Below are positions 22,741-64,000 of a stretch of DNA of 64,000 nucleotides, piece by piece; position 1 is the first letter of the stretch; every line of letters begins with the position of its first letter. The notes beneath the pieces were generated by a model. It made no database searches, had not been told where the DNA came from, and was given only the letters and a program-made list of their open reading frames with translations. This stretch comes from Methanobacteriota archaeon (GTDB lineage Archaea; Thermoplasmatota; Poseidoniia; Poseidoniales; Thalassarchaeaceae): NCBI GenBank assembly GCA_011523055.1, contig WTHQ01000020.1, positions 144,114 to 208,113 of the forward strand, given 5' to 3'. Both the position numbers and the translations under genes were made by a program.

Positions 22741-23964
22741 ATGGGGCTCTGGATATCTCTAAGAGCGGTGTCTTTGAACAATGATCAAATGGCAGGGTAC
22801 TTGGATCGTATCGGAGCAGGGAAGATCCTCCTTGACCGCACTCCCTTGTCTTACGATTGGATACCCAGTACCCTCGTTGGAAGAGACGATGCCTTGTCTC
22901 AGTTAGCATCCATCTTTTCACAGATCTCGAACCCCTCAATCAGCTGTAAGTCGGTCGTCACAGGCCCAGTTGGGTCAGGAAAGACCGTATTGACTCAAGT
23001 CTTCTCCAACGATTTGAAGAGGCACTTGGACGGGAAGAGGAAGATCATCCACACGCACGTCAACTGCCGGAATCATCCATCAGGCTCACAAGTGCTCCAG
23101 CAAATTGCACTCAGTCTCGATGAGAGGCATCCCGAGCGGGGCCTCAGCCCCGGGGAGGTCATTCAATCCATTAGACGCTTCCTAAATGCGAGAGATGCCC
23201 ACATGCTATTGGTATTGGACGAAGTCGACGTCATGATAAGAAGAGACAGCTCGGACATAATCTACAGGCTTCTGAGGATTGATGAGGGGAAGGATGAGTC
23301 CGGAACTATCTCGATCATACTGGTTAGCCAGGATCCCTCTCTTCTGAGGCTGTTCGAACCTGCGATAATCTCAAGACTGGGTGCGAGCAATAGGGTGGAT
23401 CTGGGTCCATACAACGAGGCTGAGCTCAGGGACATAGCGCTCCAGCGTTCTGAGGCATCCTGCCTCAAAGGCTCTGTGGGGGATGACGTCATCTCGAAGG
23501 TCGCTAGATACGCTTCCAACACAGGAGACGCTAGAATGGTGATAGAGCTACTTGAGGCGGCTGTCATCAGGGCCGAGGGGGAAGGACGGAGCAATGTTCT
23601 GGTCCATGATGTGCGACCAAGTGAGATGAGAAGCTCCTCACTAGAGCCCAACTTAGTCGATGACCTCCCGGATCATCAGAAGCTTATCCTGTTGGGGATT
23701 TGCAGGCGTCTGAAAAAGGTAGATACGATATCAAGCGGTGATGCACTGAAGCTCTATCATGTGGTTTGTGAAGAGTTCGGGCACAAACCACGGGGCTACA
23801 CCACCTTCTGGAAGCACATGAAATCGCTGGAAACTATGGGTATGATAGAAAGTCGAACCGACTCGGCCACGAAAGGGAGAGGGAGGACGCAACATATCAC
23901 CATGTCCAATATGGCCCCAGGGGTTCTAGAATCAAGACTTTCGAGCGTTCTGTTGATTGAGTGA
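22741..23964 (+). CDS. cdc6: ORC1-type DNA replication protein (Cdc6/Orc1)
   Basis: LVGRDDALSQLASIF ... VVTGPVGSGKTVLTQVFSNDL ... MLLVLDEVDVMIRRDSSDIIYRLLRI ... C-terminal wHTH (DHQKLILLGICRRLKK ... YTTFWKHMKSLETMGMI). Start codon uncertain. Confidence 0.88.
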   Translation: MGLWISLRAVSLNNDQMAGYLDRIGAGKILLDRTPLSYDWIPSTLVGRDDALSQLASIFSQISNPSISCKSVVTGPVGSGKTVLTQVFSNDLKRHLDGKRKIIHTHVNCRNHPSGSQVLQQIALSLDERHPERGLSPGEVIQSIRRFLNARDAHMLLVLDEVDVMIRRDSSDIIYRLLRIDEGKDESGTISIILVSQDPSLLRLFEPAIISRLGASNRVDLGPYNEAELRDIALQRSEASCLKGSVGDDVISKVARYASNTGDARMVIELLEAAVIRAEGEGRSNVLVHDVRPSEMRSSSLEPNLVDDLPDHQKLILLGICRRLKKVDTISSGDALKLYHVVCEEFGHKPRGYTTFWKHMKSLETMGMIESRTDSATKGRGRTQHITMSNMAPGVLESRLSSVLLIE

Positions 23965-26142: not shown

Positions 26143-26441
26143 GGTAGCGTGAACAATCTGTCGTCCCCATGTCCATCCATTAGACCTGTCCTGACTGCGC
26201 AATCAATCCAAGCATGGGCGTAGTTAATTGCCCCGAAGGCGCGAACTAGATCTCCTTGCTCCAGGAAATGTTCGGAGTCACTAAGGTAGTCATCGAACAT
26301 CCTAATCATCTTACCCAGATTCTCCATTTGGAGTTCATCTTTTGCAGTAGGAGTTGCTTTCTCTCTTGCCTCCTTTGAAAGTTGGATGTAATGAGTGACC
26401 GTTTCTACTGTGATTACGTTCTTTTGTTCACCTGAGTACAT
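26139..26441 (-). CDS. DUF357-like protein
   Basis: TVETVTHYIQLSKEAREKA ... NLGKMIRMFDDYLSDSEHFLEQGDLVRAFGAINYAHAWIDCAVRTGLM matches DUF357. Confidence 0.75.
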   Translation of the reverse strand: MYSGEQKNVITVETVTHYIQLSKEAREKATPTAKDELQMENLGKMIRMFDDYLSDSEHFLEQGDLVRAFGAINYAHAWIDCAVRTGLMDGHGDDRLFTLP

Positions 26442-28206
26442 CGAAAGCCTCCTCTGTTAGTTTGAAAAATCTAGTGCGTCCTTCCTTCCTTACTTTCAAA
26501 AACCCATTTCTTTTCAGTTTATTGAATAGTTGGGACATTCTTGGGCGTCCAACTTCGAGTCTCGCTTGCAGCTCCGGGTCTGACGGAGATATTTCCCTGA
26601 TCGAGGCGACAGACAAAATGAGTTTCTCCGCCTGGTTGAGCTTCCTGATATATCCGCGTTCAAGGGGTTCTGGAAGGTCCCAAATTGGCTCTGAATTATC
26701 GACAAAGGAAATTCTTGGAGTTCGGACTTCTGACGGGTGTTCTTTCACCATCTCTTGGTGGTCGTATTCAAACTGGTTTTCTTCGATGGCCTCCACAGGC
26801 GGGGGGAGGGTGGTCTCAAAATCTTCTGCGACCGTCCAAACCGCCTGTTCTGTGGACAGAACCGGGGAGCTCTCGATTGCTTCCCTTCGAGAATCTGCGA
26901 TTAATGAGGGCTCAATCAGAACTCTGGGCGTACCTTCGATTGCTCGGTTGTGGACTTCACTAGCATCAATGATCTTCGTTCCATCCCCACCTTTTGGCAT
27001 CTCAAAAGAGTTGGTCACGGTTCTATTTGCTAATCCCGTGAAAGTACCGCTGGATCTATTTTCTGTTTTGGCATTCTGGACTGGGGGGGGCTCGGTGCCC
27101 GGTTCCATCCAGAGAAATCCGACATTATTTTGGGAGACAGGTGGTTTAATCTGTTGATTTTGCCCGTTGTCTTCGATCACCGGCTCATCAACAGGAGATT
27201 CTTCTTCAACTTCCAAGTGATTCATCTCCATCTTAGGCTCATCAATTTCTTGATTCGGCATCTGATCAACGGCAACGGGCTCAATCTCGATGGTTGCATC
27301 TGGAACGGAGGTAAACTGTGGAAGGCCGTATTCGTAAATCGACGGTATTGCACCAGCAACCTCGGGATCCTGCTCCTCCTCTTGTTCATCAATCGATTTC
27401 ATTTTGGGGGATTCCTCGACATATGTTTTTTCTGACCATCGAAACAGCCTTTCTAGGGTTCCTGACCTGTTCCTTATGCCCCTCTTCTCATCGACAAGGT
27501 CCCGGAGCGTTCTGACTACTGCCCTTGGAACCCCTTCAGTCAGGTCATGTATATTCTCAATTAATTGAGGATGCATTATCCATCTATGACGTGCAACTCT
27601 GATGATTCTCTTATCGACTAGAATCTGTATCTCATCTTGGGTTAAATTTCGGAGGGTGTGAGGTGGGTCAAAAACTTCCAAAGTATCTTCTTCCAGCGAC
27701 GACAATTGATTGGGGAGCATAGTAAACAGTACCAATGCTCGTATTTTTTGCATGACCTGTACCAATCTCGGAATTACCATGCTTACCTCTACATTGTATG
27801 GGAGATCGAATGCTACGAGCGGTATTGGGCCATCCCTGGTATCGAGCTCTTGTGAGAGCCTAGAGATAGTCTCAGAGATGACTGATGGAAGATTGTGGCC
27901 CAAGAAATGAGCAGCAACTTGAGTTACCATGCTCTTGACGGGATCATCATCCAAAGGCCAATAATCGCTGATGAATGGATCGGAAGATTGTGAAGCGATC
28001 GCATTCAGCAGTGAAGTTCTCCCAGACCCTCTCACTCCGGAAACAATCACCATCCTAGGCGAGCCCGAGATGAGATGTTCTCTACACTCGATTACAATCT
28101 CGTCTCTCCCAATCAGATCCTGAGCCTGTCCAATAGATAGTGGCCTAATCTCAAATGGATTGCCGCTGAGACTCGGCAGTTCCATCAGTGTTGGATCCAC
28201 CCCCAT
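26428..28206 (-). CDS. ORC/Cdc6-like AAA+ ATPase with acidic linker and C-terminal winged helix
   Basis: LIGRDEIVIECREHLISGSPRMVIVSGVRGSGRTSLLNAIA (P-loop); long E/P-rich linker; C-term LNQAEKLILSVASIREISPSDPELQARLEVGRPRMSQLFNKLKRNGFLKVRKEGRTRFFKLTEEAFDVL (wHTH). Confidence 0.7.
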   Translation of the reverse strand: MGVDPTLMELPSLSGNPFEIRPLSIGQAQDLIGRDEIVIECREHLISGSPRMVIVSGVRGSGRTSLLNAIASQSSDPFISDYWPLDDDPVKSMVTQVAAHFLGHNLPSVISETISRLSQELDTRDGPIPLVAFDLPYNVEVSMVIPRLVQVMQKIRALVLFTMLPNQLSSLEEDTLEVFDPPHTLRNLTQDEIQILVDKRIIRVARHRWIMHPQLIENIHDLTEGVPRAVVRTLRDLVDEKRGIRNRSGTLERLFRWSEKTYVEESPKMKSIDEQEEEQDPEVAGAIPSIYEYGLPQFTSVPDATIEIEPVAVDQMPNQEIDEPKMEMNHLEVEEESPVDEPVIEDNGQNQQIKPPVSQNNVGFLWMEPGTEPPPVQNAKTENRSSGTFTGLANRTVTNSFEMPKGGDGTKIIDASEVHNRAIEGTPRVLIEPSLIADSRREAIESSPVLSTEQAVWTVAEDFETTLPPPVEAIEENQFEYDHQEMVKEHPSEVRTPRISFVDNSEPIWDLPEPLERGYIRKLNQAEKLILSVASIREISPSDPELQARLEVGRPRMSQLFNKLKRNGFLKVRKEGRTRFFKLTEEAFDVLR

Positions 28207-28235
28207 AGACAAGCGTGAGTTGCCACGCCTATAGT

Positions 28236-28391
28236 ATTAACGTTTGATTACGCTTTTTTTCAAAGATTAACGTTTATATTTCCAACTTTTTGAATAAAAC
28301 ATGCTTTTTTACATCAAATTCAATATAACGTTAACGTATAATTAACGTTTTATTAACGTATAATTAACGTATTTTTTTAATATTAACGCAT
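28236..28391. repeat. TTAACGT-type iteron cluster in AT-rich divergent intergenic region (candidate origin/operator)
   Basis: TTAACG cores start at 28237, 28267, 28331, 28342, 28353, 28364 and 28383; the four from 28331 to 28364 are spaced exactly 11 bp. Confidence 0.85.
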
Positions 28392-28510
28392 TTATTTTCC
28401 ATTTCTATCGTTTTTTTATCGTCTGATCATTGTATGTTTGTCGTAAAAAATGTCACGAAAATAACAAAACTATCCGCATTACTTACATCCCTGTCCTCAC
28501 CCCCCTCATC

Positions 28511-29812
28511 ATGGCAATAGAGGACAGTAGGATGCCGGGTTTCCATCGCCTGACGCCCAAGGAGAGAAGAGAGAAGCTCTCAGAGGTCGCTGGTTTGACA
28601 GAGGAACACGTGAAAGCCTGGGAGTCAGGAACGTTAGACATGGGGATCGCGGATCGAATGATCGAGAACGTAATAGGGACATATTCACTTCCAATAGGAG
28701 TAGCTACCAATTTCATTATCGATGGGAAGCACTATGCCATACCGTTTGTGGTGGAAGAGGCGAGTGTGGTCGCAGCCGCCTCGAACATGGCGAAAAGGTG
28801 TCTCAAGAGCGGTGGCTTCAGATCAAGCAATGATGATCCAATAATGATCGGTCAAATTCAAGTCGTGGGTTTGAAGGACGTGGGTGCTGCTCAGTCTTCA
28901 GTTCTGTCTTCAAAAGATGAAATAATTGAATTGTGCAATGAAGTGGATCCCATCCTTGTCAAATTCGGTGGAGGGTGCAAGGACATCGAAGCAAGGTCAA
29001 TTGACACTGATTCCGGATCCATGCTTATTGTCCACCTGTTGGTAGATTGCAGAGATGCGATGGGCGCCAATGCTGTGAACACAATGGCTGAGACAGTAGC
29101 CCCGAAAATTGAAGAGTTGACTGGTGGAACGGTTATTCTGAGAATAATCAGTAATCTAGCAGTTCACAGGCTCGCCAGAATCTCTGCGACATTTACCCCA
29201 GAGGAGATGTCAGATAGTGGAAATGACCACGTACAAGGATCCGAGGTCATCAATGGAGTGATCCAGGCATTCCACTTTGCTGCCGCGGATCCATTCAGGG
29301 CAACGACGCACAACAAGGGAATCATGAATGCGGTGTCATCAGTAGCAATCGCATGTGGACAGGACTGGCGTGCGATAGAGGCGGGTGCACACGCTTATGC
29401 TGCCTTCGGGAAGAAGAACTCAACGTATGGCTCCATGACTGAATGGTCCAAGGACCAAAATGGGAATCTAGTGGGGTCAATAGAAATGCCCATGGCAGTG
29501 GGTCTGGTTGGAGGCGCAATTCGTATCCATCCCGGGGCGAAGGCTAATGTTGCTCTGTTGGGGGTCGAGACGGCCGACGAATTGGGGAAGGTAATGGCTT
29601 CAGCAGGACTCGCTCAGAACCTGGGGGCTCTTAGGGCCCTTGCGACAGTTGGCATTCAAGCAGGCCATATGAAATTACATCTACAGAACATGGCAGCAAC
29701 TGCAGGGGCCGTGGATGATGAGATCGAGCTAGTCTCCAATATAGTGAAGTCCAGCGGGGAAAGAATAACCATGGCAGCGGTAATTGCCGCGTTGGAAAGT
29801 CTGAGGTCCTGA
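28511..29812 (+). CDS. Hydroxymethylglutaryl-CoA reductase, class II type
   Basis: MAIEDSRMPGFHRLTPKERREKL ... MIENVIGTYSLPIGVATNFIIDGKHYAIPFVVEEASVVAAASNMAKR ... DAMGANAVNTMAETVAP ... ATHNKGIMNAVSSVAIACGQDWRAIEAGAHAYA ... LEVEMPMAVGLVGG-type region; closely resembles the Pseudomonas mevalonii type. Confidence 0.93.
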   Translation: MAIEDSRMPGFHRLTPKERREKLSEVAGLTEEHVKAWESGTLDMGIADRMIENVIGTYSLPIGVATNFIIDGKHYAIPFVVEEASVVAAASNMAKRCLKSGGFRSSNDDPIMIGQIQVVGLKDVGAAQSSVLSSKDEIIELCNEVDPILVKFGGGCKDIEARSIDTDSGSMLIVHLLVDCRDAMGANAVNTMAETVAPKIEELTGGTVILRIISNLAVHRLARISATFTPEEMSDSGNDHVQGSEVINGVIQAFHFAAADPFRATTHNKGIMNAVSSVAIACGQDWRAIEAGAHAYAAFGKKNSTYGSMTEWSKDQNGNLVGSIEMPMAVGLVGGAIRIHPGAKANVALLGVETADELGKVMASAGLAQNLGALRALATVGIQAGHMKLHLQNMAATAGAVDDEIELVSNIVKSSGERITMAAVIAALESLRS

Positions 29813-29813
29813 T

Positions 29814-30383
29814 TTACTCCTCCTCGTCAATTGTATAATCCATAATTTTGGTCTGTCCTTGGCCCAATGATTCGGCCAGCTCGGTCCCAGTCATGCCAGC
29901 CTCTTCAGCTTGCTGTCTAAACCAACTCCTTACTTTGTCTGACCTTACTTCCGGTGCCCCAAAGTACTCCGCGAATCTTCTGGTAGTCATCAGTCGTCGC
30001 GTGGATCCATCTCTTCTACGACTGATGAGACCCATCGTAGAGAGCTCTCTGACGTGGTCATATGCCCTTTGGCCCAACATCTCAACCAGCGTGGACTGTG
30101 CCATTGGCTGGTGGTATGCTATCAATGCGGCCGTGGGCATGAGTCTCTGGGGTATGTCGGGCCTTACGTTGCCTGGCAACTTACTCGCCAAGGATGGCTT
30201 AACCTCCATTATCCACCTACCGGATATCTCGGATATCTGGAGAGCTCCGGACTTTCGCCTTGCTAGGGTGGATCTCAACCCCCTCAATGCTAACTCAGCG
30301 CTGTCCTCCTCCGATTGGGAGGCCTCAGCGATCTCGGAGACGGTCATAGACCGACCTGAGCCAAACAGAATCGCCTCGATCAC
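29814..30383 (-). CDS. scpB: Segregation and condensation protein B
   Basis: IEAILFGSGRSMTVSEIAEAS ... GALQISEISGRWIMEVKPSLASKLP ... LIAYHQPMAQSTLVEMLGQRAYDHVRELSTMGLISRRRDGSTRRLMTTRRFAEYFG. Confidence 0.9.
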   Translation of the reverse strand: MIEAILFGSGRSMTVSEIAEASQSEEDSAELALRGLRSTLARRKSGALQISEISGRWIMEVKPSLASKLPGNVRPDIPQRLMPTAALIAYHQPMAQSTLVEMLGQRAYDHVRELSTMGLISRRRDGSTRRLMTTRRFAEYFGAPEVRSDKVRSWFRQQAEEAGMTGTELAESLGQGQTKIMDYTIDEEE

Positions 30384-30403: not shown

Positions 30404-31399
30404 TCAGACTTCTGCCCCCTGTAGTTTTTCCTGGGGGTGAAGCCTCTCTGAGAGCGAGTCGAAATCGGTTTCATCAGGGTGAAGGTCGTTCAGGATTACC
30501 TGTCCATCCATTCCATCCTCTTGCCGTATGCCAGCATACCCTCTGTTCACGAGAAACAATGATGCTACCATGGCTGCGACTTGGGCCTCTGCATCCGCCT
30601 CCTCGCGAGGAGTGCCCCTCTCCATTGTTCTATCTGCGAGCTCCTCTGCGATTGAGGAGAGTGTGCAAGAGGCGGTTTCAGGATTTGCTCTCATTCTCAT
30701 GGCTTCCCATGTCCGGCGAATGTCCCCCTCCAAATCCTCAACATGCAGGCTACCGCTGAATCTGGCCCTAGCAGTCTCCAAAGCCTTTCTCCTCTCTTCT
30801 GCGATCTTCATCCGCAAGCTCTCCTCTTGGGATATCCTACTTGCTGCCTTCAAGCCCAGTAGAAGTTCACCTAAGGTTACTGGCCGGCCTTCCTCTCGCT
30901 GGATTCTGCCTTCAAACATGCTGGGGAGGTCCTCTTTATGTGATCCAGTAATGATTCCCACAGAGAAGTTGTACTCATTATCGTCGTAATCAGATTCCCA
31001 TCCGCCGTCATATATCCATAAGTCGTCGTCCTGCTCTTCCTGACTTTGCCTCTCAATGAGGGACTCAGCTTGCCCCCTTAGAACCTGCCAGGCCATTCGA
31101 ATCAAGCGTCCACAGGTTGGGAGATCTATGTGCTCGGAATCTTCGATTCTAGATGAGAACATCTCCAAGAATGCTGACAAATCGACTGCCCAAGGATCCA
31201 AGTCCTTGCTTTGGAATAGTTGCAACACTAATGCCACGGATCGATCAAATGGATCACTGAGAAATTGGTGTTCGGCCTCTTCCATTTCTGCGAGTTCGAG
31301 TATTCTATCTAGATACTCACTTGTTTCGAGGTCCATGTTCTCCGTGATTAGGGAGGCTACGATATCTTCCCTCAGTGACTTTGCATCCAAGACACTCAT
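30404..31399 (-). CDS. scpA: Segregation and condensation protein A
   Basis: SVALVLQLFQSKDLDPWAVDLSAFLEMFSSRI ... Between scpB and smc; ScpA/kleisin-like N-terminus. Confidence 0.85.
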   Translation of the reverse strand: MSVLDAKSLREDIVASLITENMDLETSEYLDRILELAEMEEAEHQFLSDPFDRSVALVLQLFQSKDLDPWAVDLSAFLEMFSSRIEDSEHIDLPTCGRLIRMAWQVLRGQAESLIERQSQEEQDDDLWIYDGGWESDYDDNEYNFSVGIITGSHKEDLPSMFEGRIQREEGRPVTLGELLLGLKAASRISQEESLRMKIAEERRKALETARARFSGSLHVEDLEGDIRRTWEAMRMRANPETASCTLSSIAEELADRTMERGTPREEADAEAQVAAMVASLFLVNRGYAGIRQEDGMDGQVILNDLHPDETDFDSLSERLHPQEKLQGAEV

Positions 31400-31403
31400 T
31401 ATT

Positions 31404-34400
31404 TCACCCGGTCTTTTGGTCGATCTCTGCTTGCTCTTCCGTAACTTCTCCGTCCGCTATCGTTCCGTCAAGTGATGTCCGGACGTCTCTCTGACTGCCA
31501 TCTTCAGCAGACTCGGCACGGTCCCTCAGATTCCCTAATGGGTCATTCCCGTCCTCAGAGCGATCCAGATCCACACCAGCACGACTGGCGATGCCCTCCA
31601 GAGATGGGACGGTTTGCATTGGCTCTGGAAGCACTGGCCTCTCTGACGGATGTGGCAAGTCTGACGGGAGCATCTCTGAAGTGGATGGTGGGCCTTGAGA
31701 CTCCATTTCTTTCTCGAAAGCCTCTCCAAGTGCAAGCGCTGCCTCCCTGTTGAAATCCGTGATCCTCCGACTAACCCCATCTCCAGCATGGGTAATGCCG
31801 ATATGGTGATTGGCCATGGATAGGCTGACCTTTCGCAAGGTCACCATGATGAACTGTGCTGACTCGCTCCTGCGACGGCATAACATCGCGATCCTCTGAC
31901 AATTGAATGGATCGAGGTTCTGGTCAACCTCGTCGAAGTAATAGAATGTGCTTGGCTCAAAGTCCTGTATCGAGAATACTAGGGCGAGGGCTGCCATTGA
32001 CTTCTCTCCGCCAGACAATTGGGACCTTCTGGTCTTCTGGCTCTTGCCAGGGGGCACACAGTCCATCTCCAAGCCCCCATCGAATGGGCTATCGGGATTC
32101 TCCAGTCTCAGCTTTCCATTTCCACCAGGTTGTAGTATCGCGTAAACTCTAGAGAAGTTTCGATTGACGTGTTCGAAGACTGTCAGGAGTCTTCTCTTCC
32201 GCTCGGATTCAAGCCTCTCAACTATGTCAACAAGCATATTCCTCCTCTTCCTCAGCGTTGAGCCATCCTCGACTAACTGCTCGATTCGCCTTGCAGTCTC
32301 GTCGTATTGCTCTATTGCCAGCATATTCACGCCACCTAGGTTGTCCAATCTTCTTTCCAACCTAGATATGTTGCGCTCTACCTCGGCCAGGGAGGGTGCG
32401 TCAGAATTCATCGATGGCATCTCAATTCCCTGTTTCACAAGTTCTTCTTCCATCTCCTTGGCAGCGTGTCTAGCCACACCTATGCCACTGTCTATGGCAT
32501 CGATGGTGATCTGGATTCTTTCTCTCTCGGATCTACTTGCCTGGGATTCTGCTCTGGCTTGGGTTCTTTCTTCGATTATCTGGTCCCTCTTGCGCGATAG
32601 CATGCCCATCTCTTCGCTAGCGTGTTGCGCCTTTGACCTGAGCTCCGTGAGTTCTCGTTCCGATTCCTTGGACCCGGTCTCTAATCCGTCTATTTCCGAT
32701 TTTGCTAAAGCGTTCTGGGAGCTCAACCGTTTGTTTTTATTTCTCAATTCATTCATCCTATCGGTAAGGACCCCGAGGCTGACATTCGCAGAATCCACGT
32801 TGTTTACTCCTTGTTGACGCATTATTTGCGCCCTCCCCTTAGCCATCTCTGCCTCTGAAAGCGTCTTGGATAGATGGTCTGGAGACTGTTGAAGAAGTGC
32901 CTCACTTGCCTTGCTTCTTTCGCTTAGAGCATGCTCAAGATTCTGCTTGGCATTGTTGAGGTCGGCCTCTGCAGCCCTCTTAGCGGCCTCGGAGCGCTCA
33001 AGGTCTTTCCTAGCCTCACTGAGTCTTGACCCTAGTGACTTGACATTGCCCTCGGCTCTGTCCAAATCAGCTTTCCATTCTCTGAATTTAGTCTCTTTTC
33101 CTGATCCTGAGATTTCCGCTATCCTGTCAGTTAGCTCTTGCATCGATGCTCTCGCATCTCTCAAAGCAACCTCAACCGTTGCTCTGGCTAAGCTGGCCTC
33201 GTTGACATCGTTCTCAAGGGGACGGAGGGAGATTGTGGGGTCTGAAGAGCCGAATTTTGGAGCGGTCTTGGAGGATGACCCCCCTGTCATGGCGCCACTC
33301 CCATCGACTACCGATCCGTCGATAGTGACCATCCTGACGCCACCCATATTCTTTCTAGCAACATCCAAGTTCTCCACTAGAAGTGTGCTTCTACTTACCA
33401 GCAGGATGGCATTTTCCACCTCCTTGGGGTAATCCAACAGCTCATGGACGAACCCAATCACCCCCGGATTTCTGACAACCATCAGCGATCTTCCCTGTGG
33501 CCTTTGTTTTCCTAGTCGGTTGAGTGGGAGGAAGGTGGCCCTTCCACCACCATTCCTCTTCAACCACGAGATGCAATCCGCCGCGACTTGGTCGTCCTCG
33601 ACGACTATGCTCCTCATCGCGCCCCCCAATGCGAGAGCTATGCCGTCTGAATGAGTCTCATCAAGGGGCCTGGCCAATTCAGCTATCGAGCCAAGAATGC
33701 CTTTGATGAGTCCCTGTTGCCTTAATTTCGTCAGTGCGGCGGCGACGCTTGCAGATCCATTTGTCTGAGCCTCGATTCGTGCTCTGGCTTTTTCTAACCT
33801 CATCTCAGATTCGCGGTGCCTGGAATCTGCCCTGTCTCTTTCTTCTCTGAGGCGGGCCTCGATCTTCCTGAGGCGTATCAGCTCCTCCCCCATTTTCGCA
33901 GGATCTTCACGGTCTGCTTCGATTTTCATGTCCTCGCCATGAATTTCTAGGTCGTCCCTCAGTAGGGTTGCCTGTTCGTACTCCTCCTCCAATTGGACCA
34001 CGGATTCTATTGATAGTGTCACAGACTGCTCTGCTCTGTCGAATGCGAGTGTGGATTCAGAATGCTCATCTTGGGACTTAGTCACTGCATCGTTTGCCTT
34101 TCCTAGTGCTCGGCTAAGGTCCAATTGTAATTTGCTTCCCGTCTCCAAAATCTCCTTGGCTTCCCTTATTGCATTGTCTGATTTTTCAATTTCTTCGTCG
34201 GCGCTCGCAATATCCGAGAGGGCCTTTGACTTGGATTCTTGGTGCTGCTCCAACGATTTTTCAACCCTTTCGATCTCCCCTTCATTGAATTCGAGGTCCG
34301 ATTGGCCGTCTTCCAATGCAGTATGTAGATCACTTATCCTGTCCTTTGCCCTCTCAATCTCCACCTCGAGCTTGCGCATTCTGTCGATTATCGCCTTGTT

Positions 34401-35297
34401 TTCGCCAGTGGACAATGAGTCTATCTGACGTCCTATCTCGGAGAGCTCCTCCTCTAACCTCAGAAGGTCGGCTTCCTTTCTCCTCGCATCTTCGAGAAGT
34501 GTAGATGAGCGTGTTCTGTATTCCTGTTGCTCGGTGAGTAAAGCGTTGATTTCATGCACCTTAGCAAGGTACCTGCATTTGGAGACCATCGCCCTGTTGT
34601 GATCTAGTTCTTGCTTTAACTCCCTGAATTTTAGGGCTTGTTCTCTTTCTTTGCCCAAGCTTTCTAACTGCTTCTTCTGATCAGTTTCGAAGAGCTCAAT
34701 CGTCTCCATGGAGCTCTCTACCTGTTTTCTTTGGTTGGAGGCCTTTCGTATGTCGTCATCGTATGCTGTTACACCTGCGACGTCTTCCAATATCGCGCGC
34801 CTCCTGTGCGCAGTCATAGTTGCGAGAGTGGTCACATCGTTTTGTAGCACCACGTTGTATCCGTCACCACGCAGGCCAGCTTCCTTCAGAATGCGTCTGA
34901 ATTCTCCCGAGGTGGTTTTTTCTCCGTTTATCCTGAACTCTGATTTTGGATCGCCCTTGTCAGTGAGCCTGACTGACCTGGTGAATGCAACCTCATCAGT
35001 ATCCACTCGAAGCTGCCTTGTCCCATCCTCCCTCAATGGGTTGGTGAAGGTGAGGGTTGCGTACATTTTCTTGGCTGCCCTGCTGTTATTCCCGCCATTG
35101 AAAATTAGTTCCTTGAGATTCTCAGCCCTCAAGGCCTTCGTGGACCTGGTACCAAGCACGAATTGTATGGCATCCCCCGAATTGGATTTACCGGAGCCAT
35201 TTGGACCAGTTATGGCGGTGAAGCCAGACTCAAAAGGTATCGTCACCTCTCCCCCAAACGACTTGAAGTTGAGGACGTCTATCCTAGTGAGTCTCAT
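31404..35297 (-). CDS. smc: Chromosome segregation protein SMC
   Basis: MRLTRIDVLNFKSFGGEVTIPFESGFTAITGPNGSGKSNSGDAIQFVLG; coiled coils and hinge; QLSGGEKSMAALALVFSIQDFEPSTFYYFDEVDQNLD. Confidence 0.96.
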   Translation of the reverse strand: MRLTRIDVLNFKSFGGEVTIPFESGFTAITGPNGSGKSNSGDAIQFVLGTRSTKALRAENLKELIFNGGNNSRAAKKMYATLTFTNPLREDGTRQLRVDTDEVAFTRSVRLTDKGDPKSEFRINGEKTTSGEFRRILKEAGLRGDGYNVVLQNDVTTLATMTAHRRRAILEDVAGVTAYDDDIRKASNQRKQVESSMETIELFETDQKKQLESLGKEREQALKFRELKQELDHNRAMVSKCRYLAKVHEINALLTEQQEYRTRSSTLLEDARRKEADLLRLEEELSEIGRQIDSLSTGENKAIIDRMRKLEVEIERAKDRISDLHTALEDGQSDLEFNEGEIERVEKSLEQHQESKSKALSDIASADEEIEKSDNAIREAKEILETGSKLQLDLSRALGKANDAVTKSQDEHSESTLAFDRAEQSVTLSIESVVQLEEEYEQATLLRDDLEIHGEDMKIEADREDPAKMGEELIRLRKIEARLREERDRADSRHRESEMRLEKARARIEAQTNGSASVAAALTKLRQQGLIKGILGSIAELARPLDETHSDGIALALGGAMRSIVVEDDQVAADCISWLKRNGGGRATFLPLNRLGKQRPQGRSLMVVRNPGVIGFVHELLDYPKEVENAILLVSRSTLLVENLDVARKNMGGVRMVTIDGSVVDGSGAMTGGSSSKTAPKFGSSDPTISLRPLENDVNEASLARATVEVALRDARASMQELTDRIAEISGSGKETKFREWKADLDRAEGNVKSLGSRLSEARKDLERSEAAKRAAEADLNNAKQNLEHALSERSKASEALLQQSPDHLSKTLSEAEMAKGRAQIMRQQGVNNVDSANVSLGVLTDRMNELRNKNKRLSSQNALAKSEIDGLETGSKESERELTELRSKAQHASEEMGMLSRKRDQIIEERTQARAESQASRSERERIQITIDAIDSGIGVARHAAKEMEEELVKQGIEMPSMNSDAPSLAEVERNISRLERRLDNLGGVNMLAIEQYDETARRIEQLVEDGSTLRKRRNMLVDIVERLESERKRRLLTVFEHVNRNFSRVYAILQPGGNGKLRLENPDSPFDGGLEMDCVPPGKSQKTRRSQLSGGEKSMAALALVFSIQDFEPSTFYYFDEVDQNLDPFNCQRIAMLCRRRSESAQFIMVTLRKVSLSMANHHIGITHAGDGVSRRITDFNREAALALGEAFEKEMESQGPPSTSEMLPSDLPHPSERPVLPEPMQTVPSLEGIASRAGVDLDRSEDGNDPLGNLRDRAESAEDGSQRDVRTSLDGTIADGEVTEEQAEIDQKTG

Positions 35298-35482
35298 AAC
35301 ATGCACCATGAGGGAGTTCTTTTCTCAGCCTCAGGTGGGAGTGCGCAGCGATTGAGATTATCAACATTGAGTATCTGTAGGGGCGCAGCGTACCGATTGT
35401 TTTGGTATATGTAAAAACCCGGCCATGTCTGCCAAAGTTAAATTCATCTGGGTATTTGCCTAATCCCGTAGCAGGCCTAATC

Positions 35483-57858: not shown

Positions 57859-58049
57859 TTGAGCACCGACTGGTTCCGGGACCAAGACGGGACAACGACT
57901 GGTGGTCAGCCAAAGATCGATCCCAGAAGGATTAATTGCCAAATCAGCACCTTTGACGTCAGCCGATCCCAGTGGAATTCCAAAGGCACGTTAAGGCACC
58001 TAGTTCTCTGCTGGATGATTTTATTCGTAGCAACTGATTGGACGCAACG

Positions 58050-58601
58050 ATGGTTGACACGACTCATATTCGGATTGGAATCCTCACCGCATCTGATCGT
58101 GCAACATCGGGAGAATACGAGGACCTCAGTGGGCCTGAGATTCAATGTCTCCTCGATGAGATACTAACAAACCCCATTGATTTCCACAAAAGGCTGGTCC
58201 CGGACAACATCGAGGAGATCTCAGACGCCCTCATCGAGCTCTGCGACGACCTCGGGTGTGCTCTCATCCTCACCACGGGCGGAACAGGGCCCGCACCAAG
58301 AGACGTCACCCCTGAGGCCACCGAGGGCGTCTGCGACCGGGTCCTGCCTGGGTTCGGCGAGAGGATGAGGTCGATCTCCTTGAAGTACGTGCCCACGGCG
58401 ATCCTGTCCAGACAGGTCGCGGGAACGAGGGGGGCCTGCCTGATAGTCAACCTGCCAGGCTCACCGAGGTCGATACGGGAGACGCTCGAGGAGTTGTTCC
58501 CCTCGATACCGTATTGCATAGACCTGATCGGTGGGCCCTACATCACCACGAGGAGCGGAAGGATGGACGCCTACAGGCCGCCTCATGCCAGAAGGGAATA
58601 G
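58050..58601 (+). CDS. moaB: MoaB/Mog family molybdenum cofactor biosynthesis protein
   Basis: IRIGILTASDRATSGEYEDLSGPEIQCLL ... LILTTGGTGPAPRDVTPEATEGVCDRVLPGFGERMRSISLKYVPTAILSRQVAGTRGACLIVNLPGSPRSIRETLEEL. Confidence 0.92.
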   Translation: MVDTTHIRIGILTASDRATSGEYEDLSGPEIQCLLDEILTNPIDFHKRLVPDNIEEISDALIELCDDLGCALILTTGGTGPAPRDVTPEATEGVCDRVLPGFGERMRSISLKYVPTAILSRQVAGTRGACLIVNLPGSPRSIRETLEELFPSIPYCIDLIGGPYITTRSGRMDAYRPPHARRE

Positions 58602-58630
58602 TTGATGACGAGTCGGCCGTGGCGTGGCCC

Positions 58631-59458
58631 ATGGCCAAGATGAAGAGTGGCGGACAACGAGACGGACGTGGGAGTGAGGAGATGCGGGGCATCAGTGTGG
58701 AGTTCGACTTCACTCCCAATGCCCTGGCCTCAATTCTCTACAAGCAAGGGAACACCATGGTCCTCGCGACCGTCACGGCGGATGAGGGGTTGCCGAGGTG
58801 GTTCCCCCGCAACGCCACTCGCGGCTGGATTCACGCCGAGTACTCATTGCTGCCAGGATCGACCAACACCCGATTCAGGAGGGAGCGCAACGGTGCGAAG
58901 GGAAGGACCCACGAGATAGAGAGGCTCGTGGCGAGGTCCCTCAGAGGCGCCGTTGATCTCGAGCAGTTGGGGCCGTTGTCCATGACCGTCGACTGCGAGA
59001 TCCTGAACGCCGATGGAGGCACCCGATGCGCCTCGATCACCGCTGGGAGCATCGCGCTGAGGCTCGCCATTCGGAGGCTGATCGCATCTGGCAGGTGCCT
59101 GCCCGCCGCACTGAGGCCGACTGATCAACAGAGGAAGGAAGGGTGGAGCGCTCCCGAGCTGTCGGATGATGACGCGAAAGGCCACGAGATGGCCGTGATG
59201 CCACATGACGTCGCTGCCCTGAGCGTCGGAATGGTGGATGGTGAGGTGAGGGTCGACCTAGACTACGTGCTCGACTCGAATGCTGATGTCGACATGAACG
59301 TGGTCATGACAAGCGCAGGCTCCTTCGTAGAGGTGCAGGGTACGGGCGAGGAGGCCACGTACACCAGGGAGGAGCTGGACTCACTCATCGACAGCGCCGT
59401 CAGGGGCATCAAGAGGCTCCACGAGTACCAGGTGCAGGTGCTCGATGGCGTGAATTGA
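58631..59458 (+). CDS. rph: Ribonuclease PH (bacterial-type)
   Basis: MAKMKSGGQRDGRG ... GNTMVLATVTADEGLPRWFPRNATRGWIHAEYSLLPGSTNTRFRRERNGAKGRTHEIERLVARSLRGAVDLEQLGPLSMTVDCEILNADGGTRCASITAGSIAL. Confidence 0.88.
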   Translation: MAKMKSGGQRDGRGSEEMRGISVEFDFTPNALASILYKQGNTMVLATVTADEGLPRWFPRNATRGWIHAEYSLLPGSTNTRFRRERNGAKGRTHEIERLVARSLRGAVDLEQLGPLSMTVDCEILNADGGTRCASITAGSIALRLAIRRLIASGRCLPAALRPTDQQRKEGWSAPELSDDDAKGHEMAVMPHDVAALSVGMVDGEVRVDLDYVLDSNADVDMNVVMTSAGSFVEVQGTGEEATYTREELDSLIDSAVRGIKRLHEYQVQVLDGVN

Positions 59459-59534
59459 TGGTGGGACTGGCCGGACTTGAACCAGCGGCCTCCGCATCTT
59501 CAGTGCGGCGCTCTCCCAACTGAGCTACAGTCCC
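59459..59534 (-). tRNA. tRNA-Phe (GAA), CCA encoded
   Basis: Reverse complement gggactgtagctcagttgggagagcgccgcactGAAgatgcggaggccgctggttcaagtccggccagtcccacca; standard cloverleaf. Confidence 0.96.
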
Positions 59535-59627
59535 GTGGGCATCCCTCGGCACCCCGATCTAAGTATCAAGCCTTCCGAGCGACTCATTCAATACGGGGTG
59601 GCATGGGTGGATACGCAGGGTGAGGGC

Positions 59628-60443
59628 ATGTCTATCGCAAGCAGGGCCAAGCGCATCACGACCAACACTCTTCAGGAGATGAAGGCCAACAGCGAGAAAA
59701 TCGCCATGCTGACTGCCTACGACTACTCGCTGGCCAGGCTCGTGGATGGATCGGGCATCGACGTCATCCTGGTGGGCGACTCCGCCTCCAACGTCATGGC
59801 GGGCCACGAAACGACGGTCCCCATCACGCTGGACCAGATGATCTACCACGCCCAGAGCGTGGTCAGGGCGGTCCAGAGGGCGCTCGTGGTCGTCGACATG
59901 CCGTTCGGGACCTACCAGAGCGACTCGAACAACGCGCTCAAGTCGGCTGTCCGCATAATGAAGGAGACAGGCGGCCACGCCGTGAAGCTCGAGGGGGGGA
60001 GCGAGGTGCTACCAGCCGTCAGGAAGATCATCGACGCAGGGATCCCCGTGATGGGGCATCTGGGGCTCACCCCCCAGTCCATCTACAAATTCGGGACCTA
60101 CAGCGTCAGGGCGAAACAGGAGGAGGAGGCGGAGCGGCTGATGCAGGATGCTATCGACCTACAGGAGGCTGGTTGCTTCTCCATCGTCTTCGAGAAGATA
60201 CCCGCCGAGCTAGCCGCCAGGGTGAGCTCCTCGTTGACGATACCCACCATAGGCATCGGAGCCGGGGTCGATTGCGATGGCCAGGTGCTGGTCCTCCATG
60301 ACATGCTCGGCATAACCCAGGAGTTCAGCCCGAGGTTCCTGAGGCGGTACGCCGACCTCGAGAACACCATTGAGGCCGCCATCACCGGTTACATATCCGA
60401 TGTCAGGGCGAAATCCTTCCCATCGGACGACGAGTCGTACTGA
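59628..60443 (+). CDS. panB: 3-methyl-2-oxobutanoate hydroxymethyltransferase
   Basis: [74 protein letters not shown] ... [44 protein letters not shown]. Confidence 0.95.
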
Positions 60444-60491
60444 TCGGGCCGTGGCATAGGTTGAAGGGCAATCTCGTCCCAAGGCGGTAAC

Positions 60492-61463
60492 ATGGCGTCG
60501 ACCGAGATGTGGGTTGAGCGCCATAGGCCGCGATCGGTCTCGGAGATGAAGGGGCAGGCGACCATCGTCGATCGACTGAGGGCATATGCCAGCCAGAGGG
60601 ACTTCCCGCACCTCCTGTTCGCGGGCCCGCCAGGCACTGGGAAGACCACCGCAGCGCTCGCCTTGGCGAGGGACGTGTTCCAGGACCCCGGCGTCTACTC
60701 GAGGAACCTGTTGGAGATGAACGCGAGTGACGAGCGGGGGCTCCAGTCGGTCAGGACCAAGGTCAAGGAGTTCGCCAGGATGGCGCCCGACAAGAGCGTC
60801 CCCTTCAAGCTGATATTCCTGGACGAGGCAGACGCGCTGACCCCCGATGCCCAGGGGGCGCTCAGGAGGATAATGGAGCAGTATGCCGGGACATGCAGGT
60901 TCATCCTATCCTGCAACTACTCCTCCAAGATCATCGAGCCCATACAATCGAGGTGCGCCGTCTTCAGGTTCAGGCCACTGGCCGAGGACCAGATCCTCGA
61001 GATGGTCCAAGAGGTCGCAGAGGCGGAGGGGCTCTCCCTCGAGGACGATGGGGCCGCTGCCGTGGTGCATGTCGCGATAGGCGACCTCCGCAGGGCCATA
61101 ACAGCCCTGCAGGTCGCTGCCTCGCTATCGAGCAAGATCACCCGGGACCTCGTCTACGAGACCACGGCCACGGCCCCCCCGGAGGAGCTGCATGCATACC
61201 TCAGGAGCTGCCAGGAGGACGGCTTCCAACCAGCGAGGAGGAAGATGTACGCCATCATCGACCGCTTCGGGCTCGCTGGCACGGACATCGTGAACCAGCT
61301 CCATCGGAGCCTTGGCGAGGTCCAGTTCATGACCGAGAGGGAGAAGCTCTCAGTCACCGAGGCCATGGCCGAGGCCGACTTCAGGTTGGTCGAGGGCGGC
61401 GGGGAGTCCCTCCAGCTTGACGCCCTCACGGCCAGGATATGCTCTACCCTGAACATCGGCTGA
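60492..61463 (+). CDS. rfcS: Replication factor C small subunit
   Basis: WVERHRPRSVSEMKGQATIVDRLRAYASQRDFPHLLFAGPPGTGKTTAALALARDVF ... ASDERGLQSVRTKVKEFAR ... KLIFLDEADALTPDAQGALRRIMEQYAGTCRFILSCNYSSKIIEPIQSRCAVFRF. Confidence 0.97.
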   Translation: MASTEMWVERHRPRSVSEMKGQATIVDRLRAYASQRDFPHLLFAGPPGTGKTTAALALARDVFQDPGVYSRNLLEMNASDERGLQSVRTKVKEFARMAPDKSVPFKLIFLDEADALTPDAQGALRRIMEQYAGTCRFILSCNYSSKIIEPIQSRCAVFRFRPLAEDQILEMVQEVAEAEGLSLEDDGAAAVVHVAIGDLRRAITALQVAASLSSKITRDLVYETTATAPPEELHAYLRSCQEDGFQPARRKMYAIIDRFGLAGTDIVNQLHRSLGEVQFMTEREKLSVTEAMAEADFRLVEGGGESLQLDALTARICSTLNIG

Positions 61464-61464
61464 G

Positions 61465-62343
61465 TCACTGGACCTGTACGTTCAGGGTGTACTCGCGGTA
61501 CCACTCGTTCTGCCACAGGCCGCCATCCTCGACCAGCCTGATGGATATGGTGTGTATACCGGGCTCTAGCGACTCCAAGTCGAACGCGAAGCCCATGTCG
61601 TCCGGCTTGGAGGCTGGCTCTCCGGACTCCGTCCAATTGGCCACCTCCAAGTACCTCTGATTCGACAGGGCGGCTGGATCGCTGTCAAGGGCCCAACCTG
61701 CGAGGACCACCTCTGCGTCGCCGTACCTCTGTATGGTCGCGTTCATGTGAATGTCATCCAGCTTCCAGTTGTCCCTGACGCTGAAGCCTATCGTGATGTC
61801 TGGCGATCCGTCCACGACCGAGAGGATGAGGTCGCCGTCCTTGTTGTAATCAACGGACGCGACGTCCCCTGTGTCCGCGATTCCGATCCCCTCTGGAACC
61901 TCCGGAGCGGCTATGTCCCCCAATGGCGGGTTGATCATGGCCACGGATGCCGCCAGCCAGGTGAACAGGAACAGCATCCCCGCCCTGAACCAATTCCCCC
62001 CTGTGTAGAGCTCGCTGAACCTCTTGGGGACAACGAGGCGATGGATGGTGGGCAGGAAGAATACGAGTGACAGCGGTAGAAGCCAGATCGATCGAGCGGG
62101 GCCGTCCATCACAGGGAGGATGACGAACCTCTGGAAGAGGGCGAAGGAGGCCCCAAGAGCGATCACCAGCCACATAGACCACGCGTCGGCCTTCTCCTTC
62201 TCGTAGGCCGCCACTGGATCGAATGGCTCGAGGACCTTCGGCACGCGATCCTTGGGGCCGTCACCCTTGGGCCGCTTCCTCCCAGAATATGCGCTCGACC
62301 TCAAGGCCGTGTCAACGTCAACCACGTTGGTGGCTGGAACCAC
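61465..62343 (-). CDS. Membrane protein with extracellular beta-rich C-terminal domain, unknown function
   Basis: Three hydrophobic helices (WLVIALGASFALFQRFVILPV; SIWLLPLSLVFFLPTI; AGMLFLFTWLAASVAMI), then a beta-rich domain. Confidence 0.55.
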   Translation of the reverse strand: MVPATNVVDVDTALRSSAYSGRKRPKGDGPKDRVPKVLEPFDPVAAYEKEKADAWSMWLVIALGASFALFQRFVILPVMDGPARSIWLLPLSLVFFLPTIHRLVVPKRFSELYTGGNWFRAGMLFLFTWLAASVAMINPPLGDIAAPEVPEGIGIADTGDVASVDYNKDGDLILSVVDGSPDITIGFSVRDNWKLDDIHMNATIQRYGDAEVVLAGWALDSDPAALSNQRYLEVANWTESGEPASKPDDMGFAFDLESLEPGIHTISIRLVEDGGLWQNEWYREYTLNVQVQ

Positions 62344-62484
62344 CGTTCATGAATCATGCGGACGAAATCAAGATTTTTGGTTTACAGCGCACCGACAACG
62401 GTGCCTGGGCCCTCTTGATTTCTCGATTTGGGGCCAAGCACAAACTGCAATACTCAAATGGTGGTAGTGTTGCGGTGGGTATAG

Positions 62485-62615
62485 GCCGGGGTGGCGTAGT
62501 TGGTAGCGCGTCGGACTCATAGGGCAGTCTTCGGACATGTGCGCGCTTGAGTAATGCCTCTTGGGATGCCTGAGTCATCCGAAGGTCGCGGGTTCAAGTC
62601 CCGCTCCCGGCACCA
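62485..62615 (+). tRNA. tRNA-Met (CAT), elongator-like, with 55-nt intron (62522-62576) at position 37/38; CCA encoded
   Basis: Acceptor gccgggg/tcccggc, D-arm gcgtagttggtagcgc, anticodon stem tcgga/tccga, CAT at 62518-62520, T-arm gcgggttcaagtcccgc, a + CCA. Perfect hBHBh' splice motif. Confidence 0.93.
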
Positions 62616-62689
62616 AACTACACCGCCATCCTGCCTCCAGTCGTCGTTAACAACAGTTCAATAGATTAAACTCGGAGCAGAAAACAACC

Positions 62690-64000
62690 ATGTCACTGGA
62701 TTCGATCGAGTGGTTGGGTCGTTTCCTCGCCGAGACGCCGGGCGACCGTCAGAAGGGAGGGCTCCCCAGGCAGGTCAAGGGCGCCTGTTGGTCGAGGGTG
62801 GATCCGACGCCCGTGCCAAGCCCCGCACTCAGGCTCTGGTCAGAGGAGGTCGCGAACGACCTGGGGATCCAAAGAGGGGGCGGCGATGTCCTCTCAGGCA
62901 ATCGGATTCTCAAGGGAATGGACCCATACGCCCAGAGGTACGGTGGCCATCAGTTCGGCAACTGGGCCGGCCAGTTGGGCGATGGAAGGGCCATCACACT
63001 CGGGGAAGCCGATGCCGGCGGCCAGGTTTTGGAGGTTCAGCTGAAGGGGTCGGGACTCACCCCGTACTCGAGGTTCGCAGACGGAAAGGCCGTCTTGCGC
63101 TCCTCGATCCGCGAGTTCCTCTGCAGCGAGGCCATGTTCCACCTAGGCGTCCCCACGACTCGTGCCCTGTCCTTGGTGACGACCGGCGAGGAGGTCATTC
63201 GGGACGTCATGTACGACGGTCGGCCGGCTCCGGAGCATGGAGCCGTGGTGTGCCGGGTCGCACAGAGCTTCCTCAGATTCGGTAGCTTCCAGATACACGC
63301 GGCCAATGGGGACTACCAAACGCTCCGGGACCTCGTGGGTTTCACGGTTCGTCACCACTTTCCAGGCCATAGCGTAGATGATGATGATGGGCGTTTAGAC
63401 TGGCTCAAGGAGGTCGCGGAGACCACGGCAACCATGGTCTCCCACTGGATGAGGGTTGGTTTCGTCCATGGCGTGATGAACACCGACAACATGTCCATCC
63501 ATGGCCTCACTATCGACTACGGCCCCTACGGATGGGTCGAGGACTACGACCTCAATTGGACGCCGAACACCACGGACTCCAACACCAAGAGGTACACCTT
63601 CGGCAACCAGGGGGGGATAGCTGAGTGGAACCTAGCACGCCTCTTGGAGGCCATTGGCCCCCTGATGGATGACCCAAACAGGCTCTACGAGGTCCTCGAC
63701 CACTTCAGATCCAAGCTGAAGGTCGCCATGGGGGCCATGTGGAGGCAGAAGCTCGGCCTGGGAGCCCCAGAGTCCGATGACCAGAACCTAATCTCAGACT
63801 TGAGATCTATCCTCAGGATGGCCGAGACTGACATGACGATATTCTTCAGGCTCCTTTCCTCGATCCCGGATCCCTCTCAATCCCATCTGGAGTACGCCTA
63901 CTACGAGCCGGTCGAGATGCCGAGGGGGGCCTTGGATTCTTGGCTGGCCAGATGGTGGTCCAGGGTCGACGGCAGCCCCGACAGGGGTGGCATGAGGCTA
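62690..64000 (+). CDS. selO: SelO/YdiU family protein (protein adenylyltransferase SelO), truncated by window edge
   Basis: In-frame from ATG 62690: MSLDSIEWLGRFL...YAQRYGGHQFGNWAGQLGDGRAITLGE...LEVQLKGSGLTPYSRFADGKAVLRSSIREFLCSEAMFHLGVPTTRALSLVTTGEEVIRD...GFVHGVMNTDNMSIHGLTIDYGPYGWVEDYD. Missed by track because there is no stop in the window. Confidence 0.93.
   Translation, partial: MSLDSIEWLGRFLAETPGDRQKGGLPRQVKGACWSRVDPTPVPSPALRLWSEEVANDLGIQRGGGDVLSGNRILKGMDPYAQRYGGHQFGNWAGQLGDGRAITLGEADAGGQVLEVQLKGSGLTPYSRFADGKAVLRSSIREFLCSEAMFHLGVPTTRALSLVTTGEEVIRDVMYDGRPAPEHGAVVCRVAQSFLRFGSFQIHAANGDYQTLRDLVGFTVRHHFPGHSVDDDDGRLDWLKEVAETTATMVSHWMRVGFVHGVMNTDNMSIHGLTIDYGPYGWVEDYDLNWTPNTTDSNTKRYTFGNQGGIAEWNLARLLEAIGPLMDDPNRLYEVLDHFRSKLKVAMGAMWRQKLGLGAPESDDQNLISDLRSILRMAETDMTIFFRLLSSIPDPSQSHLEYAYYEPVEMPRGALDSWLARWWSRVDGSPDRGGMRL

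Follow-up and report, generated by a model that had tools for sequence, protein, structure and literature searches.

Introduction

Archaeal replication origins recognized by Orc1/Cdc6 proteins carry multiple intergenic origin recognition boxes (ORBs) or mini-ORBs with a cdc6 gene near by, and in ParB-parS systems the CTPase ParB acts at palindromic sites that can form a single chromosomal cluster close to smc-scpAB. MalT-type ATPase regulators, which combine an NTPase with a C-terminal DNA-binding domain, act at the malE/malK divergent promoters. In plasmids with iteron origins (for a review, see PMC4980987), direct repeats with a helical period lie beside the gene for a winged-helix protein, and related sites occur at the promoter of that gene. 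Orc1-2 of Sulfolobus, an ORC-type AAA+ protein with a winged helix, is a global transcription factor of the DNA-damage response (PMC9738581).

Here we analyze a stretch of 64,000 nucleotides (the window) from a genome of the archaeal order Poseidoniales, in which a short-repeat array lies next to a gene for an AAA+ winged-helix protein. The Poseidoniales, also called Marine Group II, occur abundantly in surface oceans. To our knowledge the order has no cultured member, and we know of no account of how its replication, segregation and lipid synthesis are controlled. No earlier description of the array or of the AAA+ protein was found in open-access papers. One cis-element and one likely cognate protein, present order-wide and undetected in the sister order, provide a concrete handle.

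An 11-bp phased array between divergent genes

A preliminary description of the window reported seven TTAACG cores in an AT-rich intergenic region (28213-28510), the four central copies lying exactly 11 bp apart. All seven cores (starts 28237, 28267, 28331, 28342, 28353, 28364, and 28383) were reproduced, as was the spacing of the central four (28331/28342/28353/28364); the outermost core (28383) reads TTAACGC, not TTAACGT. The 295-bp region has seven TTAACG occurrences, whereas 5000 shuffles averaged 0.37 and never exceeded 4, and seven of the eight TTAACGT matches in the 64-kb window (1.9 expected) fall inside the array region. Tandem Repeats Finder returned a sole array in the 64 kb, at 28331-28372, with a period of 11, 3.8 copies, and the unit TTAACGTATAA. 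At 29% GC (median 53%), the region ranks lowest among 300-bp stretches of the window, in line with the preliminary description, but only second lowest within the 208-kb contig; its best 40-bp AT fraction is 0.88.

The gene order in the window is cdc6-2, rps6e, eif2g, PIN, DUF357, AAA, array, HMG-CoA reductase, scpB, scpA, smc (Table 1). The right-hand neighbor of the array, unnamed in the preliminary description, is the HMG-CoA reductase gene, whose product carries out a key step in the synthesis of isoprenoid lipids.

Table 1 Features of the array and its flanking genes, in window coordinates.
Feature	Position	Strand	Basis
Orc1/Cdc6 paralogue 2 (Cdc6-2), ~4.3 kb from the array	22741-23964	+	Domain match; order-wide synteny
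AAA+ ATPase gene, order-specific, proposed array binder	26428-28206	-	Domain models, orthologue profile
Putative TATA/BRE of the AAA gene, minus-strand reading CGTTAATACTATAGG	28228-28242	-	By eye
AAA-proximal pair TTAACGT-N4-TTACGC, units 11 bp apart	28237-28253	+	Sequence
Lone TTAACGT unit	28267-28273	+	Sequence; kept within the genus
AT-rich spacer, unwinding-element-like in the window's genus	28274-28327	no strand	Sequence, composition
TTAACGT in inverted orientation, overlapping core unit 1	28328-28334	-	Motif scan
Core array, four TTAACGT units, exact 11-bp period	28331-28372	+	Sequence, Tandem Repeats Finder, conservation; essentially unique per genome
Outer TTAACGC unit	28383-28389	+	Sequence, genus comparison
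Block CCGCATTACTTACATCC, putative HMG-CoA reductase promoter element	28474-28490	+	Kept in the genus; alignment by eye
HMG-CoA reductase (NAD/degradative type, NCBIfam model), divergent partner	28508-29812	+	NCBIfam; pair conserved
scpB	29814-30383	-	Order-wide synteny
scpA	30404-31399	-	Named by position; matched by no NCBIfam model
smc	31404-35309	-	Order-wide synteny

Several other stretches stood out during the same survey. The lowest-GC 300 bp of contig G000:C30 (21% GC, at ~81750-82050) is AT-rich non-coding DNA with seven copies of ATTTTA. At the end of the window (58001-64000), GC climbs from ~0.54 to 0.59-0.63 over a segment that encodes a tRNA-Phe and an AAA+ protein resembling a clamp-loader subunit. 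An Rfam tRNA match at 62485-62612 (+) spans 128 bp and was missed by ARAGORN, and is thus probably an intron-containing tRNA gene.

The array is conserved and holds a fixed position in the Poseidoniales

Orthologous intergenic regions carry the array in the same genus, in other genera of the family, and in a second Poseidoniales family, in each case before the orthologous AAA+ gene (52 regions across both families). These regions are related by descent, so that counts of sites and spacings do not represent independent events; each holds 2-10 TAACGY/RCGTTA sites, with a mean of 5.5 compared to 0.53 after dinucleotide shuffling. Same-strand neighboring sites are 11 bp apart 80 times, and no other spacing occurs more than six times. 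Plus-then-minus neighbors are mostly separated by 15 bp (17 cases) or 4 bp (14 cases) and minus-then-plus neighbors by 16 bp (18 cases), values that place most inverted units likewise in the 11-bp register. The unit consensus across regions approximates ATTAACGYWT, and one genus (g8) retains few sites (2-4). A comparison of the TTAACGC-to-TTAACGT switch in the window's genus with changes in the winged helix of the AAA+ protein revealed no clear change in the recognition helix, the switches being few. Several relatives (L016, L017, L021, L028, L030, L031, L051, L055, and others) carry a further conserved element, approximately TTTACGGGT...GAAATCCGAGG, in the spacer that separates the core array from the AAA-proximal pair; it has some ORB resemblance, and none was seen in the window's genus.

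The AAA-array-HMG-CoA reductase arrangement is kept at 21 Poseidoniales loci recovered by a search for HMG-CoA reductase and in a closed genome (2.06 Mb) from the other family. The wider gene block is kept as far as the 21 fetched loci extend. In one clade (L040, L042, L044, L045, L047, and L048), cdc6-2-rps6e-eif2g is inverted beside DUF357, with AAA-array-HMG-CoA reductase-scpB-scpA-smc unchanged. Across the genomes examined, cdc6-2 lies within ~4-7 kb of the array.

The exact paired pattern TAACGYNNNNNTAACGY has a single occurrence in the window's own genome, at the array; with zero copies elsewhere in that genome, no regulon was seen. The preliminary description had named equal abundance of the motif in other parts of the genome as a refutation, which was not observed. 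Of 291 genomes from the order, 200 contain TTAACGYWWWRTTAACGY with at most one mismatch; a few of the listed matches fall outside the locus. A sample drawn from the phylum gave matches in 42 of 64 Poseidoniales genomes versus 8 of 182 other genomes, those eight all with one mismatch. Each of the 71 matches in the 42 Poseidoniales genomes sits upstream of the AAA gene, at a distance of 54-194 bp. This fixed position, held by 71 of 71 matches, is the strongest single result. Common descent from one array means that the shared position is partly inherited; as an explanation for the lack of off-locus matches in the 42-genome sample, descent alone is insufficient.

A scan of the non-coding DNA of the closed genome yielded no other convincing repeat or ORB-like cluster. 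Two further non-coding repeat clusters from that scan resemble, by eye, 23S rRNA and a duplicated tRNA, and a second TAACG cluster (1809753) is intragenic and was judged to be chance. No rival array was seen in the upstream regions of Cdc6-1 genes that were read. In genomes of the other family (L123, L124, L125, and L126), these regions share a GGGGGACTCGGACT-like box shortly before the Cdc6-1 start, which reads GGCGGACTCGGACT in L126.

An order-specific AAA+ protein with a predicted C-terminal winged helix

Models divide the 592-residue product of the adjoining gene into a predicted AAA+ domain, a linker of ~245 residues modeled with low confidence, and a predicted C-terminal winged helix (residues ~505-592). 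A profile of 38 orthologues detected the protein in 63 of 64 sampled Poseidoniales genomes and in none of five genomes of the sister order within the same class; elsewhere in the phylum it gave just short, weak matches, mostly to the P-loop. Six genomes (G007, G027, G066, G068, G087, and G103) gave no match to the AAA protein and none to a full HMG-CoA reductase, which indicates that the whole locus is missing there, perhaps owing to assembly gaps. Walker A is invariant among orthologues. In Walker B, D134 is the sole invariant residue and the usual second acid is absent, a reduction that leaves ATP-driven assembly uncertain.

The preliminary description called this protein ORC/Cdc6-like. The label suits the predicted AAA+ fold, which in structure comparisons is nearest to MuB filaments, ORC/Cdc6, and TnsC (target-normalised TM of 0.62-0.67 for MuB and ~0.33-0.45 for ORC-type chains), but it does not extend to family membership. 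The AAA+ domain gives a weak AAA_16 match below the cut-off, sequence models of the Cdc6 lid and Cdc6_C have no match in the protein, and the winged helix is ArsR/SmtB-like, again with a match below the cut-off. Judged by sequence, the protein is not a member of the Orc1/Cdc6 family.

Between the window and the closed genome of the other family, identity reaches 42% in the winged helix and 26% in the AAA+ part, and the recognition helix is near-invariant (GR.R.SQ, or KR.R.SQ in the other family). Cdc6-2, in contrast, has similar identity in its winged-helix and ATPase parts. This contrast points indirectly to the AAA+ protein, which is probably the factor that binds the array.

Array units overlap the putative promoter of the AAA gene

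The AAA-proximal pair overlaps the putative TATA/BRE of the AAA gene. Read towards the AAA start, relatives display GCGTAATTATGCGTGAATATTAAG, in which two units 11 bp apart enter a TATA-like box near the start codon, and in most regions of the window's family the pair sits on the putative AAA BRE/TATA, with promoters assigned by eye. A site for autoregulation would occupy this position. The earlier suggestion that the array is an operator of the AAA+ gene draws support from position, uniqueness, and conservation. On the opposite side, a conserved block ~20-40 bp before HMG-CoA reductase (CCGCATNNCTTACA in the window's genus, GTTAGAAG in others) is taken as the putative promoter of that gene, and its distance from the core array varies.

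Our best explanation, a tentative one, is that the array serves as a cooperative binding platform for the neighboring AAA+ protein, which would regulate both its own gene and that of HMG-CoA reductase. One winged helix would occupy each TTAACGY unit, and the 11-bp lattice would align the protomers along almost the same face of the double helix, allowing the AAA+ domains to oligomerise along the DNA; we infer that the lattice mirrors such cooperative assembly. The AAA-proximal pair, lying over the putative AAA promoter, would confer autoregulation, and transcription of the divergent gene, that of HMG-CoA reductase, would be governed by the core array. Whether transcription is the output is evenly balanced. 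The divergent AAA/HMG-CoA reductase pair is retained even where the adjacent cdc6 block is inverted, but this adjacency is common to scpB-scpA-smc and may therefore lack specificity. A single-target regulator with up to ten sites would also be unusual, which counts against a regulatory reading, as does the varying distance of the core array from the putative HMG-CoA reductase promoter.

Replication or segregation as the main alternative

A role in replication or segregation is the main alternative, and the neighborhood makes it attractive; the preliminary description had listed an origin and a centromere-like or partition site among its candidate roles. Stated broadly, a AAA+ winged-helix protein that is specific to the order and not a member of the Orc1/Cdc6 family would assemble on the unique 11-bp array, which lies between cdc6-2 and smc-scpAB, and either start replication or load SMC and segregate the chromosome, a proposal that we consider somewhat unlikely. 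If it is true, this order of marine archaea, abundant and uncultured, would possess a non-canonical initiator or centromere system.

The narrower proposal that the array is the chromosomal replication origin, an iteron-like site for the AAA+ winged-helix protein and/or Cdc6-2 with an autoregulated initiator gene, is unlikely. Its appeal lies in a locus found once per chromosome throughout the order, in the proximity of cdc6-2 and the adjoining smc-scpAB, in the predicted AAA+ fold, and in the lack of another convincing cluster in the non-coding DNA of the closed genome, where the raw GC-skew minimum (654 kb) lies 41 kb from the array (695 kb). After correction for gene strand, however, the locus is not an extremum in that genome (quantiles of 0.70 and 0.86); the sharpest change in corrected skew occurs at ~1.22 Mb, origin-like steps fall at ~0.08-0.1 and 1.98 Mb, and the GC3 gradient peaks at ~216 kb. 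Skew near the locus varies among genomes: raw cumulative curves of the window's own contig, a 240-kb contig of a relative, and the closed relative make no consistent turn, and neither the own contig nor another relative has a skew V at the array. Genes within 100 kb are not oriented away from it (0.41). The inflection anticipated in the preliminary description was thus not found consistently. Skews in archaea are hard to read and are weak evidence either way (PMC12999951), so these results do no more than weaken the origin proposal.

Two side observations concern the closed genome (G148:C1). The ~1.22-Mb skew change lies roughly opposite the GC3 peak, making it a candidate terminus, and the origin-like signals at ~0.08-0.2 and 1.98 Mb coincide with neither Cdc6 gene. 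Open-access papers yielded nothing on Poseidoniales origins.

Other properties of the array bear on the same question. The AT-richness, which the preliminary description likened to a DNA-unwinding element for its T-runs and AT-rich flank, is seen in the window's genus and is not kept in GC-rich relatives, where the best 40-bp AT fraction is 0.58-0.63 (three Poseidoniaceae-type regions of the other family). The array does not resemble a canonical ORB, as the preliminary description held: no ORB-like dyad was seen by eye in the window array, whose units read TTAACGY, and the closed genome has scattered ORB-like patterns, none of them at the array locus. Two Orc1/Cdc6 genes are present in the window's own genome and likewise in five of six relatives tested, and the gene located elsewhere matches the family more strongly than cdc6-2. 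The inconsistent skew switch, the unconserved AT-richness, the missing ORB, and the second Orc1/Cdc6 gene together weaken the case for an origin, which retains its compatibility with the gene neighborhood and the AAA+ fold.

By analogy with ParB-parS, the array could instead be a segregation or SMC-loading site at which the AAA+ protein nucleates, spreads or oligomerises, and recruits SMC-ScpAB. A single site beside scpB-scpA-smc order-wide, including the clade with the inverted cdc6 block, would fit such a role, as would the closeness of the predicted fold to the DNA-filament formers MuB and TnsC. We nevertheless regard it as improbable, given that the link between the array and SMC is one of genomic adjacency, that 11-bp direct repeats differ from parS palindromes, and that autoregulation accounts more simply for the overlap with the AAA promoter. 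It is very improbable that Cdc6-2, or a different factor, binds the array in the role of a transcription factor, comparable to that of Orc1-2 in the response of Sulfolobus to DNA damage. The cdc6-2 gene is always nearby, the stronger Cdc6_C match belongs to Cdc6-1 rather than to Cdc6-2, and a non-initiator Orc1 paralogue serving as a regulator has precedent (PMC9738581), but the Cdc6-2 winged helix is no better conserved than its ATPase part, unlike that of the AAA+ protein, and the array is always tied to the AAA gene, relative to which cdc6-2 has moved.

Comparison with known systems

Archaeal ORB or mini-ORB origins resemble the locus in their multiple intergenic sites, the nearby cdc6, and the adjoining gene for an AAA+ winged-helix protein; they differ in that the array has no ORB-like sequence and no skew support, and its neighbor has neither Cdc6_C nor a Cdc6 lid. 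Like parS, the array is one cluster on the chromosome, close to smc-scpAB and adjoined by the gene for a candidate cognate protein. An AAA+ protein here takes the place of the CTPase ParB, however, the repeats are mainly direct with some inverted rather than palindromic, and a loading role is putative. MalT likewise joins an NTPase to a C-terminal DNA-binding domain and uses a number of short sites, oriented both ways, in the DNA between divergent genes. MalT belongs to another fold family with a different DNA-binding domain, whereas the AAA+ protein has no recognized sensor domain and its own gene is one of the divergent pair. Sulfolobus Orc1-2 offers a parallel as an ORC-type AAA+ winged-helix protein that is a transcription factor (PMC9738581), but it truly belongs to the Orc1 family and regulates globally, whereas the AAA+ protein falls by sequence outside that family and is associated with one locus. 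Compared with iteron plasmids (PMC4980987), the array is chromosomal and order-wide, with an 11-bp unit and inverted units in register, an AAA+ protein in place of Rep, an AT-rich region that is not conserved, and a putative replication role. The two share tandem direct repeats of helical period beside the gene for a winged-helix protein, here a predicted DNA-binding protein, and related sites at the promoter of that gene, here a putative one.
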